Assembly: GCA_018648585.1 (NCBI GenBank)
Contig: JABGQW010000012.1
Coordinates: 1-56,993, forward strand
Direction of reading: 5' to 3'
DNA length: 56,993 bases
Source of the DNA: a bacterium
GTDB lineage: Bacteria; Patescibacteriota; Gracilibacteria; UBA4473
The notes under the pieces: generated by a model
What the model saw: only the letters and a program-made list of their open reading frames with translations
Databases searched by the model: none
Told to the model about the DNA's origin: nothing
Translations under genes and position numbers: made by a program
In this document: piece by piece, positions 36,929 to 53,767 of the stretch
Position numbering within the stretch: the first letter of the stretch is position 1
Layout: each line of letters starts with the position of its first letter

Positions 36929-39397
36929 ATGGAGTACGCACATATTTTTTGGGGAACACTCGCCGTGGCAGCAATCGCGCTGCTGATTTTGTTGAAGTGG
37001 GCAATCGGGAGCCGCGCAGACTTTCATCGAAGTTTGCGATTTGTGTTTTTGGAAGTGATGATTCCGAAAAAAGAATCCAAAGAAGACTACGAACGCGATC
37101 GCGATCAGACGAACGAAATTCGACGCGTAGTCGGTGTTGGCGATCATTTTATGCGAAGTTTGTCCGGAATTTATTCGCCCGATTGGAAACATTTTTGGAG
37201 ACGACAGGATTTTTTGTCGCTCGAGTACGTCGCGACCGATGGAGAAATTAAATTTTATGTCGGATGTCCACGCGAACTGCAAAAAGTTGTGGAAAAACAA
37301 ATCACAAGTTTTTATCCGGAGGCGGTCGTCGAAGAAACCGATTCGCCGAAACTTTTTTCGCCAAAAACGCAGCAGGTGACCGGATACGTACGCGCGGCAA
37401 AACAATATTTTTTTCCGATTCGCACGTACCAAAAATTCGAATCCACCGATCCGATCAACAATATTTTGAATTCATTGTCGAACGCGTCCGACGAAAATGG
37501 AAACTCCGCCGCGATCCAAATTATGATTCGCCCGGTCGCCGACAACTGGCAAAAAAAAGCGCGCCGACTTTCGAAAAAACTCGGCTCGGGAAAACGCAGC
37601 GCCGTCTGGTGGAATCCACTGTCGTGGCTGGGAGCAGTTTTTAGCGTGCTGATTTCTGGAACTGATGAAAATAAATCTGGCGGAAACGACGACGAAAAAG
37701 ACACTGAATCGCAGGAAACGGTAAAAGCGATCGAGGAAAAAGCGGAAAAATCTGGATTTCGCACGCTGATCCGATGCGTGACAAGTTCGCCCGATCGACG
37801 CGCCGCACAGGTAAATATGACATCGGTACTCAATTCTTTTGCTCAGTACGGAGCGCCGAGTCTGAATAGTTTTCAAACGCATAATTCGGGAAAATATCAT
37901 TCTCGTCGCACGCTGATTCGAAATCTGTTGCTGCGAAATTTTCGCCGAACGTGGATGGCGCAACACAAACTGGTTTTGAATTCTGAGGAACTCGCCTCGC
38001 TGTTTCATTTTCCACACATAAAATACAACAACATTCCCGCGGTGAAATGGCAAAATTATAAAATTTCCCCCGCGCCAGCGAACATTCCAAAATCTGGGCT
38101 GCTGCTCGGACACAACATTTATCGCGGAAAAAAGACGCCCATTTATTTGAAAAACGACGACCGGTTTCGACATTTTTATGTGATTGGTCAGACAGGAACG
38201 GGAAAATCTTCGATTTTTCAGTCGATGGTTCGCCAGGATTTGCAGGAAAATCGCGGCTGCTGCATCGTTGATCCGCACGGAAGTTTGGTCGAATCGCTGC
38301 TGCCGTTTGTCCCAAAAGATCGCGTGGACGACGTGATTATTTTTGATCCGTCCGATCTCGAACGCCCGATGGGATTGAATTTGCTCGAAGCTGAAACCGA
38401 GGAGGAAAAAGACATGGTCGCGCTCGACGCGATGAATATTATGTTGAAAATGTTCGACGAAGAAACGTTCGGACCACGCATTCAGGATTATTTTCGAAAC
38501 GGTGTTTTGACGCTGATGGCAGATCCTGCCGGCGGCTGCATGACCGACATCGTGCGTCTTTTTACCGACGACGGATTTCAGCGCGCAAAAGTAAAACACG
38601 TAAAAAATCCCGTGGTAAAAAGTTTTTGGACAAAACAAATGGCGCAGACCGGACAGCGCGAAAAACAAGAAATGATTCCGTATTTTGCAGCAAAATTCGG
38701 CGCGTTCGTGACCAACGCGATGATGCGAAATATTATCGGGCAGACGAAATCTGCGTTCGATTTTGCGAAAGTGATGGAGGAGGGAAAAATTCTTTTCATG
38801 AATTTGTCGAAGGGAATGACCGGCGAAATTAATTCGAAATTGCTCGGGTTGATCGTCGTTTCAAAATTGCAAGTCGCGGCGCTGCGACGGCAAAAAAAAC
38901 TCACCAGCGGCGAAAAACCCGCGGACTTTTTCTTGTACATCGACGAGTTCCAAAACTACGTCACCGACTCGCTCGAATCGATTCTTTCGGAGGCAAGAAA
39001 ATACCGACTCGGACTCGCGATGGCGCACCAGTACTTGAATCAGATCGACACGAGCCAATCAAAAAAAGGCGGCGTAAATTTGAAAGATGCGGTTTTTGGA
39101 AACGTCGGCACGATGATGTGCTACAAAATCGGTGCGCAGGACGCGGAAGCGATGGCGAAAGAAATGGCGCCGGTTTTCACCGATCAGGATTTGATCAACA
39201 TCGACAAATACAAGGCGGTGATGAAACTTTCGGTCGACACGCAGCCGAGTCGTCCGTTTTCAATTATTCCGACAAATCCGTACCTCGAAAAAGGAAGTCC
39301 CGAGATGGCGACGGCGCTGAAACAAATTTCGCGACTCACGTACGCAAGAAGCAAAAAATTTGTGGAGAAAGAAATTTTCACGCGACTTGACGTTTGA
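36929..39397 (+). CDS. VirD4/TraD-like membrane ATPase (type IV secretion DNA-binding domain)
   Basis: An 822-residue inner-membrane ATPase. One N-terminal transmembrane helix (about 5-26) is followed by a 350-residue membrane-proximal region including an acidic, Lys-rich insert. The motor domain then has Walker A VIGQTGTGKSSIFQS (about 420-427), CCIVDPHGSLVESLL, and Walker B FFLYIDEFQNYVTDS near 669, followed by EARKYRLGLAMAHQYLNQI and an arginine-finger region. This is the coupling-protein/DUF87-like ATPase found across CPR genomes, thought to power DNA or pilus traffic. No relaxase is nearby; pilin-like proteins are encoded at 45930-48139 and 53271. Not obviously co-transcribed with clpC 37 bp upstream. 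Confidence 0.87.
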   Translation: MEYAHIFWGTLAVAAIALLILLKWAIGSRADFHRSLRFVFLEVMIPKKESKEDYERDRDQTNEIRRVVGVGDHFMRSLSGIYSPDWKHFWRRQDFLSLEYVATDGEIKFYVGCPRELQKVVEKQITSFYPEAVVEETDSPKLFSPKTQQVTGYVRAAKQYFFPIRTYQKFESTDPINNILNSLSNASDENGNSAAIQIMIRPVADNWQKKARRLSKKLGSGKRSAVWWNPLSWLGAVFSVLISGTDENKSGGNDDEKDTESQETVKAIEEKAEKSGFRTLIRCVTSSPDRRAAQVNMTSVLNSFAQYGAPSLNSFQTHNSGKYHSRRTLIRNLLLRNFRRTWMAQHKLVLNSEELASLFHFPHIKYNNIPAVKWQNYKISPAPANIPKSGLLLGHNIYRGKKTPIYLKNDDRFRHFYVIGQTGTGKSSIFQSMVRQDLQENRGCCIVDPHGSLVESLLPFVPKDRVDDVIIFDPSDLERPMGLNLLEAETEEEKDMVALDAMNIMLKMFDEETFGPRIQDYFRNGVLTLMADPAGGCMTDIVRLFTDDGFQRAKVKHVKNPVVKSFWTKQMAQTGQREKQEMIPYFAAKFGAFVTNAMMRNIIGQTKSAFDFAKVMEEGKILFMNLSKGMTGEINSKLLGLIVVSKLQVAALRRQKKLTSGEKPADFFLYIDEFQNYVTDSLESILSEARKYRLGLAMAHQYLNQIDTSQSKKGGVNLKDAVFGNVGTMMCYKIGAQDAEAMAKEMAPVFTDQDLINIDKYKAVMKLSVDTQPSRPFSIIPTNPYLEKGSPEMATALKQISRLTYARSKKFVEKEIFTRLDV

Positions 39398-39465: not shown

Positions 39466-39714
39466 ATGCCAATTATCACAACAAATTCAAAATTCCAAAA
39501 AAACATTGGACAATTTGCAAAATCGGTACAAAAAAAACCATGCATCATCACCACGCACGGCGAACCCAAAATGGTTGTTTTGCCGTATTTTGAAAACAAT
39601 GAAGATTTGATTGATGATTATTTTGAAAATTTCGAAATGTGGCAAAATCAAGAAAAATTACAAAAAAAATATGGCGAAGCACTCAAAAGTGGAAAATCTA
39701 AACGCGTGATTTAA
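39466..39714 (+). CDS. Phd/YefM-type antitoxin
   Basis: An 82-residue protein: an N-terminal DNA-binding domain (ITTNSKFQKNIGQFAKSVQK, PCIITTHGEPKMVVLPYF) in the Phd/YefM style, then an acidic, likely disordered C-terminal part that would wrap the toxin (ENNEDLIDDYFENFEMW). It is expected to neutralise the RelE/ParE-like toxin encoded 1 nt downstream and to autorepress the operon. The promoter is strong and a palindrome sits in the leader. The order antitoxin-toxin and the tight spacing are canonical for type II systems. Confidence 0.87.
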   Translation: MPIITTNSKFQKNIGQFAKSVQKKPCIITTHGEPKMVVLPYFENNEDLIDDYFENFEMWQNQEKLQKKYGEALKSGKSKRVI

Positions 39715-39715
39715 A

Positions 39716-39973
39716 ATGATTGTTTTTGAATTTTTATCATCTTCTGAAAAAAGTTTTCAAAAAATCGACAAAAAAAATCAAGATCGAATTATTAAAAAAC
39801 TGCAATCATTAAAAAAACATCCAAATATTTTTCATATTTTACGGCCACTTTTTGATTTTAAACCAGCAACACACAGACTGCGAATTGGGAATTTTCGATT
39901 AATTTTGAAACAAGAAGCTGCAACCAATTTTTTAATTTTGGACATTGGCGATCGACGCGAAATTTATAAATAA
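39716..39973 (+). CDS. RelE/ParE-superfamily toxin
   Basis: An 85-residue toxin with the family layout: helix 1-2 (SEKSFQKIDKKNQDRIIKKLQSL), then strands with ATHRLRIGNFRLILKQE and the end LDIGDRREIYK, matching the Y/H-R-L-R-x-G-x-[YF]-R and H/D-R-R-x-x-[IV]-Y pattern. Members are usually ribosome-dependent mRNA endonucleases (RelE) or gyrase poisons (ParE); the motifs here do not discriminate. The ATG follows the antitoxin TAA after one base, so translation is coupled. It is convergent with tuf. Confidence 0.87.
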   Translation: MIVFEFLSSSEKSFQKIDKKNQDRIIKKLQSLKKHPNIFHILRPLFDFKPATHRLRIGNFRLILKQEAATNFLILDIGDRREIYK

Positions 39974-45555: not shown

Positions 45556-45795
45556 TCAACTCACTCCTCCGAAAAACTTTCCAAATGTCGATCGCAACCA
45601 GTGCGGCAAATCTCCTGTCAACCACACGATGGAAAATAATGTCATCGCCAGTCCAAGCAATTTTATGAACGTGTACGTTCCACCGCTGCCAAAAATTTTT
45701 TCAGCAAATGGAATTTCACCGAAAAATTGGTCGACGATTTTCACCGCGTACACAATGACAACAATTCCGCCCGGGATCAACAACCACGCGATCAT
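45556..45795 (-). CDS. Small membrane protein, 79 aa, upstream of tRNA-Ala
   Basis: A protein with two hydrophobic helices (IAWLLIPGGIVVIVYAVKIV and TFIKLLGLAMTLFSIVWLTG) joined by FFGEIPFAEKIFGSGG, like a pilin-type membrane hairpin but without the S-x-G-x-E motif seen in the neighbouring proteins. Start ATG 45793-45795, chosen because a strong promoter (TTGACA-16-TACAAT) lies just upstream and would cut into any longer product; the frame itself is open to 45954. The tRNA-Ala gene begins 5 bp after the stop. It is divergent from the three-hairpin protein at 45930. Confidence 0.68.
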   Translation of the reverse strand: MIAWLLIPGGIVVIVYAVKIVDQFFGEIPFAEKIFGSGGTYTFIKLLGLAMTLFSIVWLTGDLPHWLRSTFGKFFGGVS

Positions 45796-45835
45796 CACGT
45801 TTGAAAAAAAATCTGAAAAAGAACAAAACAGCGCG

Positions 45836-45863
45836 ATTGTAGGGACGCCGTTTTTTTTGTCAA
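45836..45863 (-). promoter_or_regulatory. Promoter for the 79-aa protein and the two tRNAs
   Basis: On the minus strand: TTGACA (45858-45863), 16 nt, TACAAT (45836-45841). Predicted start near 45829, leader about 34 nt. No other promoter is evident before the tRNAs. Confidence 0.75.
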
Positions 45864-45893
45864 ATTTCACTGGCAAAAATCCCGCTCCAACAC

Positions 45894-45922
45894 TTGAAAA
45901 ATACTGACTTTTCTGGTATAAT
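45894..45922 (+). promoter_or_regulatory. Leaderless promoter of the three-hairpin protein operon
   Basis: TTGAAA (45894-45899), 17 nt, perfect TATAAT (45917-45922), then 7 nt to ATG 45930. The start codon coincides with the predicted transcription start. Confidence 0.88.
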
Positions 45923-45929
45923 TTTTTGA

Positions 45930-47144
45930 ATGAAAAAACTTCTCGTCGTCGCACTCACCACATTTTGCGTTCTCGTGCCGGGAACTTTTGTTCTGGCAAC
46001 CGGAACTTTTTCTTGTGAGGAAACAAATCAAACCGCACAAAACGTGTGCGAAGGCGTTTTGAATTTGAAAAAAATCGCAGAAAAACGGCGAATTTCAAGC
46101 ATCGAAGCGATCAAAATTTTGGATTACAATTCCGGACAAGATTCGCAAACGCAGCAAATTCAAGCCGATCAATTCATCGCGGACGCTGAGTCGAAATTTT
46201 TTCTGGGAAAAAACGAAAGCGATGTGACGCAAAAAATTCTGCATTTCAACAGCGCCGGAGAAAAATACCAAGCGGCAATCGCAAAGTTTGATGCCGCGAC
46301 AAAATATTTGCCGCTCACAACGCGAAATTACGACTCAATTTACACGGACAAAAATCTCATCATGCAGGCCGGCGGAAATTTTTCTGGTGGAGGAAAAGAC
46401 AGTACATCGTGGTTTCGAGAAATGTTTTCCTGGAAAAACGGACAACTCCTCCGCACGATCAACCGAATTCTCGGTGGAATCGGAATTATTTATTTTTTGA
46501 TTTTAGGATTGAAATTTATTTTTTCCCAGGGAAGTGACGAAAAAATCAGCAACTACAAAGAGCAATTCGGCTGGATCGTCGTCGGACTCGTCGTGATTTC
46601 GTTGGCAGAATTTATCGGATTTCAAGTGCTCGATCCGACGCAACGCGATATCATCTCCGGCACGGGCAACAACAGCGCGACGCAGAATTTTTATGAAAAA
46701 ACAAAACAAGTCGTGCGATTCTTTGAGTACATCGTCGGCGGTTTTATGCTGATCAACGGCCTGATGTCCGGGTACAATCTGATCATGCACGGACCAAAAG
46801 AAGAATCCGTTTCGCAGGAAAAAAAGTTTTTACAATCGTTTCTCGTCGGTTCGATTTTCATTTTGATGGCCGAAGTTTTTGTCCGAATTTTTTCGTTGCA
46901 GGACGGACTCACAAACGCGCGATATCTCGCGATCACAGAAATTGCCGGATTGGTAAATTACATGCTGTCGTTCATCGCGATCATCGCAACAATTATGCTA
47001 ATTTTTTCAAGTCTGTACTACATCATCAGCTTTGGAGACGAAGAACAAATGGGGCGCGCAAAACGAATTTTGTACTCAAATATTCTCGGCGTCGTGATCG
47101 CATTTTCTGCGTACACGATCGCGCGATTTCTCATCAACGTGTAA
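45930..47144 (+). CDS. Exported membrane protein with three type IV secretion pilin-like hairpins
   Basis: A 404-residue protein. A signal peptide (to about VLA|TG) precedes a 150-residue extracytoplasmic helical region (two cysteines near the start). Three membrane hairpins follow. Hairpin 1: FLILGLKFIFSQGSDEKISN then FGWIVVGLVVISLAEFI. Hairpin 2: VGGFMLINGLMSGYNLIMHG then FLVGSIFILMAEVFVRIF. Hairpin 3: MLIFSSLYYIISFGDEEQMG then RAKRILYSNILGVVIAFSAY. Hairpins 1 and 3 carry the hydrophobic-S-x-G-[DE]-E element and basic residues typical of PF18895-type pilins, which normally have one hairpin. Paired with the similar gene 2 bp downstream. A role in a pilus or secretion channel is inferred. Confidence 0.8.
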   Translation: MKKLLVVALTTFCVLVPGTFVLATGTFSCEETNQTAQNVCEGVLNLKKIAEKRRISSIEAIKILDYNSGQDSQTQQIQADQFIADAESKFFLGKNESDVTQKILHFNSAGEKYQAAIAKFDAATKYLPLTTRNYDSIYTDKNLIMQAGGNFSGGGKDSTSWFREMFSWKNGQLLRTINRILGGIGIIYFLILGLKFIFSQGSDEKISNYKEQFGWIVVGLVVISLAEFIGFQVLDPTQRDIISGTGNNSATQNFYEKTKQVVRFFEYIVGGFMLINGLMSGYNLIMHGPKEESVSQEKKFLQSFLVGSIFILMAEVFVRIFSLQDGLTNARYLAITEIAGLVNYMLSFIAIIATIMLIFSSLYYIISFGDEEQMGRAKRILYSNILGVVIAFSAYTIARFLINV

Positions 47145-47146
47145 AA

Positions 47147-48139
47147 ATGAAAAAAATATTTTTGTTGTCGATCGCGTTGATCTCGCTCTGCGGAGCGGGA
47201 ATCGGACAGGCGCAAACTTCTGGAATTTCTTCGGTGACAGAAAAATTGCACACACTTCCCACGGGAGCTGCGTCAATTCCCGCGATGGAAACGCTGTTTC
47301 AAAAAGATGGGAAATTTTTTGATGCAAACCTCGAATCAAAACTTCCCGACTACACCGGAGACAAAAAAACGGGCGCAGAACAACTCCGAAACGCCGTTCG
47401 ATTGATCGATAAATTTTTAATTCGCATCGGAATTCCGATCGCAATTTTGTTGATCGCGTACGCCGGAATCGAACTTTTGTCGGCGCAAGGAAAAGAAGAA
47501 ACACACAGTCAAAAAATCACGCAGCTGCTCGCGATCGCGATCGGATTTTTGTTGATGCTGAGCGCCGCACATTTGGTGGACTGGGTTGTTTTTGGAAACG
47601 AGGGAGATATTTTTCGAGACAAAGATGGCGCCGGAAACGCAATCGATCCGGCAGCATTTGCAAAACGCGGCGTGACCGAACTCGAAGGATTATTCCATTT
47701 TCTGACAACTTTTGCGGTGATCATCGCCGTGGCGTACATTATTTTCAACGCGATGACAATGATTTTGGCCGCCGGAGAAAACGAAAGCGAACTTGCCGGC
47801 GCAAAAAAACGAATTGTTTTTGGAATCACCGGAATGGCAATTTTGATTTCGATCAAACCGATGCGCGATCTTTTCACAGAATCCGACGGAAAACTCGCCG
47901 TGGGAAATATTCATCTCACGATCGACCTGATCGCAAAATGGGCAAATTATATTCTCGGGCTGCTCGGCGTTTTTGCGGTGATCGGGCTGATTTATGCGGG
48001 AATCCGATTGATTTCAAATTTTGGCGACGAGGCGGCGATGGAAAACGCAAAAAAAATTATGATCGCCTGCGGAATCGGGCTGCTGGTGGCATTTTCTGCC
48101 TGGACGGTGGTCAATCATTTTGCGACACCAGCCGGCTGA
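47147..48139 (+). CDS. Second exported protein with three pilin-like hairpins
   Basis: A 330-residue protein. The signal peptide ends in IGQA|QTSG, so the mature protein begins with glutamine. A 65-residue exported segment is followed by three hairpins, each with a short polar turn: ELLSAQGKEETHSQK; MILAAGENESELAGAKKRIV; LISNFGDEAAMENAKKIM. All match the S/A-x-G-[EDK]-[EN]-x(3-6)-[AK]-K element of the single-hairpin pilin at 53271. The third hairpin is closest to that protein. It starts 2 nt after the preceding gene's stop and shares its promoter. Together the two probably form a complex in the cytoplasmic membrane; function is inferred only. Confidence 0.8.
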   Translation: MKKIFLLSIALISLCGAGIGQAQTSGISSVTEKLHTLPTGAASIPAMETLFQKDGKFFDANLESKLPDYTGDKKTGAEQLRNAVRLIDKFLIRIGIPIAILLIAYAGIELLSAQGKEETHSQKITQLLAIAIGFLLMLSAAHLVDWVVFGNEGDIFRDKDGAGNAIDPAAFAKRGVTELEGLFHFLTTFAVIIAVAYIIFNAMTMILAAGENESELAGAKKRIVFGITGMAILISIKPMRDLFTESDGKLAVGNIHLTIDLIAKWANYILGLLGVFAVIGLIYAGIRLISNFGDEAAMENAKKIMIACGIGLLVAFSAWTVVNHFATPAG

Positions 48140-53270: not shown

Positions 53271-53642
53271 CTAAAATCCAGTACTCACCCCATCGGCTGC
53301 CTTGAGCAACGTGTTGACGAGTGCGAACGAAACAAGAACGATGATGATCCCAATCGCTGCATACAAAAGTACTTTTTTTGCTTTGTCGGTATCTTCTCCT
53401 GCAGATGTAATGTAGAGAAATCCTCCGTAAATAATCATCACGGTCGCCACCAATCCCAAGAAAAATAGGAAATAATTGATGATCGTGCGGGCAATATTAC
53501 GAGCAGATCCTTCTCCGCCGGTTGCGGAAGTAATATTGTTTGGGCTGTCTGCTGGGTCGATCATCTGAGCGACTGCCGGCTCGATGGTCAAAAGCCCAAC
53601 GGCCAGAAGAAGTCCGAGCGCGGGAGCAAGAAATTTTCTCAT
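53271..53642 (-). CDS. Single-hairpin type IV secretion pilin-like protein
   Basis: A 123-residue protein. The signal peptide ends in EPAVA|Q, so the mature protein begins QMIDPADSP. A short Gly/Asn-rich exported stretch precedes one membrane hairpin: IINYFLFFLGLVATVMIIYG, turn FLYITSAGEDTDKAKK, then YAAIGIIIVLVSFALVNTLL. This is the PF18895-type (T4SS pilin, TrbC/VirB2-like) plan common in CPR bacteria. Start ATG 53640-53642, where the signal peptide begins; the 10-residue extension is not supported. It is likely the structural subunit related to the two three-hairpin proteins at 45930-48139. Confidence 0.85.
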   Translation of the reverse strand: MRKFLAPALGLLLAVGLLTIEPAVAQMIDPADSPNNITSATGGEGSARNIARTIINYFLFFLGLVATVMIIYGGFLYITSAGEDTDKAKKVLLYAAIGIIIVLVSFALVNTLLKAADGVSTGF

Positions 53643-53767
53643 TGTGCTGTATGTTTTTAATGCGGAGACCAATTTTCACAACGTAACGCCGGAAAAAAGT
53701 ATCTCACGAGTTCTTCAGGAGAATTTTCGGGGAAAACAAAATTTTTGGCAAGTTTTTTTCCCTTTTT

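Follow-up and report, generated by a model that had tools for sequence, protein, structure and literature searches.

A class-wide pair of pilin-family proteins with three membrane hairpins each in Gracilibacteria

Pilins of the VirB2 type are encoded in Patescibacteria as arrays of 2-11 separate genes (PMC12102498), and in the saccharibacterium 'Ca. S. epibionticum' an array of six pilins is reported to be essential (PMC12857230, PMC12102498). VirB6/TrbL, a second membrane component of type IV secretion systems (T4SS), has been proposed for R388 as a possible platform for pilin assembly (PMC12857230). In Gracilibacteria, the T4SS genes are dispersed and VirB6, an inner-membrane component, is reported absent; the published T4SS survey offers no explanation for it there (PMC12102498). 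Little has been described of how Gracilibacteria and the ultrasmall bacteria related to them hold on to their hosts and feed on them. Here we describe a two-gene locus of this class whose products belong to the pilin family, each carrying three membrane hairpins in one chain. The window, the whole stretch of 56,993 nucleotides that we analysed, is one contig (C2) of a 1.05 Mb genome estimated to be 99.8% complete.

Two adjacent genes with three hairpins each

The first-pass annotation had read two neighbouring genes as encoding three hairpins apiece after an exported part. The open reading frames, a custom hairpin HMM and AF2 models agree on this architecture, giving the following features:

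45930..47144, + strand: gene A (404 aa), with signal peptide, exported helical N-terminal region and three PF18895-family hairpins
45930..45998, + strand: predicted signal peptide of A, residues 1-23 (end approximate), inferred from sequence, with a hydrophobic segment at 5-21
46449..46616, + strand: A hairpin 1, residues 174-229, turn FSQGSDEKISNYKE, diverged type, E inside TM2
46710..46886, + strand: A hairpin 2, residues 261-319, turn HGPKEESVSQEKK, diverged type, E inside TM2
46950..47123, + strand: A hairpin 3, residues 341-398, turn SFGDEEQMGRAKR, canonical pilin type
47147..48139, + strand: gene B (330 aa), with signal peptide, short disordered exported region and three PF18895-family hairpins
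47414..47581, + strand: B hairpin 1, residues 90-145, diverged type
47693..47857, + strand: B hairpin 2, residues 183-237, diverged/intermediate type
47939..48115, + strand: B hairpin 3, residues 265-323, canonical pilin type
53271..53672, - strand: S, single-hairpin pilin-family protein of 133 aa (PF18895, E 5.7e-8)
36929..39397, + strand: VirD4/T4CP-like ATPase of 822 aa, a candidate partner only

Genes A and B lie on the same strand with a gap of 2 bp, and each product begins with a hydrophobic signal-like segment. Both match the Pfam family PF18895 (T4SS_pilin) above its curated cut-off of 26.6 bits: A with E 3.5e-16 (59.5 bits) and B with E 3.8e-21 (75.4 bits) over three stretches, hairpin 3 of B being the top PF18895 match of the genome. 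The assignment of the hairpins to the T4SS-pilin family, which unrelated profile matches could have overturned, is thereby upheld. The hairpin HMM, seeded with seven hairpins of the window, widened on fetched relatives and scanned over fetched genome stretches, located exactly three hairpins in each of the two proteins, against no hits at all in 1000 shuffled copies. Across the class the turns at all six positions share the consensus G-[DN]-E-E..K-A-K-K, an acidic pair with a lysine-rich end. The motif had earlier been noticed in five of the six turns; it is real, but all six turns align, the sixth being that of A hairpin 2 (HGPKEESVSQEKK).

Six membrane helices are predicted after the signal peptide in each protein. 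The AF2 models, built from 27 relatives of A and 29 of B and of moderate confidence (mean pLDDT 71 and 73), show three helix pairs per protein with a four-residue turn in each, and these pairs are the best-predicted parts. In B the helices span residues 76-112/117-148, 168-208/213-243 and 255-290/295-326, and those of A are comparable. Ahead of its hairpins A carries about 150 exported residues that are helical, whereas the equivalent part of B is short and disordered. Foldseek searches of both models against the PDB returned nothing below E 0.1 and thus no similar solved structure, and sequence-profile searches of the PDB returned only composition matches to membrane helices.

A hydrophobic N-terminal segment is present in 79/88 proteins of such pairs. 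Lysine and arginine make up 14.6% of residues in the inner turns against 7.0% in the outer linkers, an excess that fits an N-out topology with the turns inside and the linkers outside. Signal-peptidase-like AxA sites occur in 108/176 linkers and in 110/176 shuffled ones, so we rejected the notion of a polyprotein cut into single pilins. VirB2/TrbC pilins have a single hairpin per mature subunit; A and B have three per chain.

Spread and neighbourhood of the pair

Adjacent same-strand genes with exactly 3+3 hairpins were present at fetched loci of 44 genomes from about 14 families of one class (f1-f6, f8, f9, f11, f16 and f18-f21), so the absence of the pair from relatives, which the first-pass annotation had named as a refutation, is not observed. 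A further 3+3 pair, additional to these families, occurs in a genome of f12 that uses a TGA-glycine code (G030). In the 44 pairs the gap between A and B is mostly -8 to +10 bp and the linkers between hairpins measure 21-58 residues. The length of the N-terminal region lies anywhere between about 20 and 530 residues, the upper end being reached before hairpin 1 in some A proteins. A first search with B found relatives in 41/41 genomes, most with a second match alongside, and among 287 genomes across the phylum the full-length three-hairpin matches came from the same class. All A relatives (27/27) match PF18895 at E <= 0.01. The closest named relative, a Candidatus Gracilibacteria MAG, shares 63% identity in B, and a scan of genome contigs returned one close relative only.

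The exceptions are few. Family f7 has 4+4 hairpins, the last hairpin of each gene again being canonical; f10 (L173 and L174, TGA-recoded) combines a gene of three hairpins with a partner reduced to a single one (3+1); one genome (G031) has an array of single hairpins; and an intact pair is missing from G008 and from the incomplete genomes G017 and G019. In two f7 loci (L070 and L077) the position types match between A and B, as if an internal hairpin had been gained in both. Counted over the fetched loci of the class, 69 genes have one hairpin, 6 have two, 99 three, 4 four and 1 five; outside it the numbers are 42, 10, 1 and 2 for one to four hairpins, mostly single-hairpin arrays with occasional fusions of two, three or four. 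The five-hairpin PF18895 protein (L139:3998-5377) comes from a genome of the class in which the 3+3 pair is present as well, and the resemblance of its hairpins to each other suggests recent tandem duplication. We also considered a strict total of six hairpins as a rule and rejected it: the total is 8 in f7 and 4 in f10, and it ranges over 3-9 in arrays outside the class, even if the three f61 genomes examined do have 6.

Around the window's pair, the order A-B-mutY-ftsK-pfkB-S(reverse)-recG is kept across several genera of the same family. S is thus syntenic with A-B, and in several relatives it lies a few kb from prgI, which is itself 8-10 kb from B in four genomes of the family (G001, G011, G012 and G018) and 12-15 kb from the pair in two genomes of a second family. 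In the present genome the pair sits beside mutY and ftsK and shares no operon with virB4, prgI or a PKD giant. Upstream, a small two-TM protein (45556-45954, - strand) is divergent from gene A; its conserved part of about 78 aa starts at an internal ATG, and nine further genomes of the family have it upstream of the pair at 44-67% identity. We considered it as a T4SS part, and no family could be assigned. The VirD4-like gene adjoins a pair of Phd-like antitoxin and ParE-like toxin genes (39466-39973).

A closer gene partner than VirD4 emerged in seven other families (f4, f6, f16, f18, f19, f20 and f21), where B is followed, directly or within a few genes, by a giant protein whose single hairpin lies close to its N-terminus. 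The giants scanned for domains are PKD-rich and, where examined, the next gene encodes a 3-TM PKD protein. Of all the clues to function this gene linkage is the strongest: A, B and the PKD giant are probably parts of a single surface apparatus. Contig C21 of the present genome (G000:C21, L047:4605-13547) carries a single-hairpin protein, a one-hairpin PKD giant, a 3-TM PKD protein and an SLH/VWA/VIT protein, a cluster that is probably the surface part of the same apparatus as the pair.

The remaining T4SS components are scattered over the genome. In the first-pass annotation S was the putative polymer of a pilus and the VirD4-like ATPase its putative motor, roles that stay conjectural here. 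The more usual assembly components are a VirB4-type ATPase and PrgI/TrsD-like proteins, and the genome has VirB4, PrgI/VirB3 and a TrsD-like protein, as expected of a patescibacterial T4SS. The VirB4-like ATPase (TraG P-loop, E 2.1e-24) lies on C13 and has no T4SS neighbours, and PrgI lies on C14, followed by a 255-aa TraC/TrsD-like protein. Proximity to virB4, a trait of VirB2/TrbC pilins, is lacking in the pair, which is on a different contig. Other PF18895 proteins of the genome (on C5, C7, C21, C25 and C26) are single hairpins, several with large exported domains. No convincing VirB6/TrbL was detected in this genome; the one TrbL match, on C8 (E 0.018), was rejected as an 11-TM transporter-like protein.

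Hairpin specialisation and candidate functions

Profiles of A and B align in full register over all three hairpins (E 5.6e-46), and the hairpins differ by position. Compared by hhalign, the third hairpins (A3 and B3) group with single pilins at 121-135 bits, whereas A1, A2 and B1 reach 77-91 bits against singles and B2 is intermediate. In about 30-70% of A1, A2, B1 and B2 (about 70% of relatives for hairpin 2 of A) the outer half of TM2 contains an acidic residue, against less than 10% of A3, B3 and singles. Hairpin 3 of A and B therefore retains the pilin consensus and hairpins 1-2 have diverged. Every array or fused hairpin examined outside the class scored best with the single-pilin profile, indicating that the A and B types are class-specific and that fusions elsewhere have separate origins. 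A fixed base role for the pair is plausible on sequence grounds, because the departure from the pilin consensus affects four of the six hairpins and depends on position. Pilin arrays, it would seem, can become fused, fixed multi-hairpin proteins with a division of labour between hairpins, a possibility that bears on why other Patescibacteria retain several divergent pilins.

The reading that we favour, with a probability of roughly 0.45, is that A and B form a fixed, pilin-derived membrane platform of a class-specific, T4SS-derived surface machine, with docking of further subunits and power from VirB4. It builds on homology, fusion, a topology signature, conservation, gene linkage and position-specific divergence, from which we infer an A-B complex, its platform role, docking and the energy source. 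A and B would descend from VirB2-like T4SS pilins by fusion and specialisation. Sec would export both, leaving the N-terminus outside, and the three hairpins of each chain would cross the cytoplasmic membrane so that their G[DN]EE..KAKK turns face inward. A and B would then join into a fixed platform in which hairpins 1-2 of each chain are structural, while hairpin 3, still pilin-like, may dock single-hairpin subunits such as pilin S and the giant PKD protein reaching the host. VirB4, with PrgI/TrsD, could power the insertion or extraction of these subunits. Against a fixed platform stand the position of the pair in this genome, outside any operon of virB4, prgI or the PKD giant, the TrbL/VirB6-like proteins of five relatives, the varying hairpin number (4+4 and 3+1), the empty Foldseek search and the moderate pLDDT.

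Part of this evidence would also suit a class-specific replacement of VirB6, in which A and B are a polytopic T4SS channel of pilin hairpins that passes substrate. Each protein resembles VirB6 in having six membrane helices in about 300 residues, VirB6 was found neither in this genome nor, by the published survey, in the class (PMC12102498), and the intramembrane acidic residues of the diverged hairpins could line a polar path. Homology to VirB6/TrbL was nevertheless rejected, since a profile comparison of the B family with the TrbL/VirB6-like proteins of the class gave a probability of 0.6%, and TrbL (PF04610) is absent from the Pfam families that match A, B or the 27 A-type relatives. Moreover, five relatives have a TrbL/VirB6-like protein elsewhere and at least four of them also have the pair, so there A and B are not simply the missing VirB6. 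We regard such a replacement as unlikely. In f9, TrbL/VirB6-like proteins stand beside pilins of one or two hairpins (L088:5940-8411 and L089:7460-9460), a second T4SS-like locus additional to the 3+3 pair, and similar TrbL relatives occur in G020, G029 and G033.

The partnership with PKD proteins could also mean that the hairpins are mere membrane anchors of a PKD-type adhesion complex that neither secretes nor polymerises and is not a T4SS. The nearest partners in the seven families are the giants and the 3-TM PKD protein, the PKD cluster on C21 includes an SLH/VWA protein, and the pair is distant from virB4. Anchoring, however, has no need of three copies with a conserved charged turn, and the VirB4/PrgI/TrsD core is retained in nearly all these reduced genomes (the TrsD-like protein was checked in two), which makes pure anchoring doubtful.

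A bolder version of the fixed platform, which we hold to be rather improbable, has the class converting a pilin array into a fixed hetero-oligomer: the six distinct hairpins of the 3+3 pair would form a closed or helical membrane ring that serves as translocon and pilus base, replaces VirB6 and bears single-hairpin PKD giants and pilins on its host-facing side. The 4+4 and 3+1 families imply that a strict ring stoichiometry is not required. If such a ring did exist, the six-pilin array of Saccharibacteria might by analogy be a fixed hetero-assembly and not a store of antigenic variants.

Membership of the pilin family, together with the essential arrays of separate pilins in Saccharibacteria (PMC12857230, PMC12102498), also raises the prospect that A and B are themselves pilus subunits, fused pilins that polymerise three hairpins at once. 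We give this little credence: the pilin consensus is lost in hairpins 1-2 and kept in hairpin 3, the N-terminal regions of some A proteins, which reach about 530 residues, are awkward for a polymer, and single-hairpin candidates for the polymer exist alongside. Chance fusion, an ordinary tandem duplication of a membrane domain without shared architecture, has parallels in the independent fusions of 2, 4 and 5 hairpins elsewhere and is nonetheless highly improbable, contradicted by 3+3 in 44 genomes of about 14 families, by ordered neighbours and by position-specific hairpins.

Comparison with known systems

The first-pass annotation knew of no described system with this arrangement, and that statement holds for the open-access literature searched: fused pilins of this kind are not described there, and only arrays of separate pilin genes are (PMC12102498). 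The domain itself is a known one, and a pilin-family annotation can be given to both proteins; the class-wide 3+3 pair with specialised hairpins appears to be undescribed. As a two-gene module linked to PKD giants, it offers a specific candidate for the membrane component that the survey did not account for, and would make the presumed host-contact apparatus directly testable by simple biochemistry.

With PF18895 and TrbC/VirB2 (PF04956) pilins and the patescibacterial arrays, A and B share the hairpin domain, the charged cytoplasmic turn and the signal peptide, and the arrays come from the same phylum. They differ in having three hairpins per chain, a two-gene pair, diverged hairpins 1-2 and long exported N-terminal regions, whereas the known arrays are described as separate genes. 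The Mbov_0395 family (NF045849) of mycoplasma ICEs comprises pilin-like conjugal transfer proteins with single hairpins of about 80 aa; all B relatives (29/29) match it, and the window proteins score under its curated cut-off of 40 bits. VirB6/TrbL (PF04610) is alike in its roughly 300 residues and several membrane helices and differs in having no sequence or profile relation to the pair. The array of 'Ca. S. epibionticum' likewise holds six divergent hairpins in one chromosomal cluster, with a T4SS that includes VirB4 and PrgI. Array hairpins of the other classes examined are all of the canonical type, a comparison to which the S. epibionticum array is external. That array consists of six genes near virB4, whereas the pair consists of two fused genes away from virB4.
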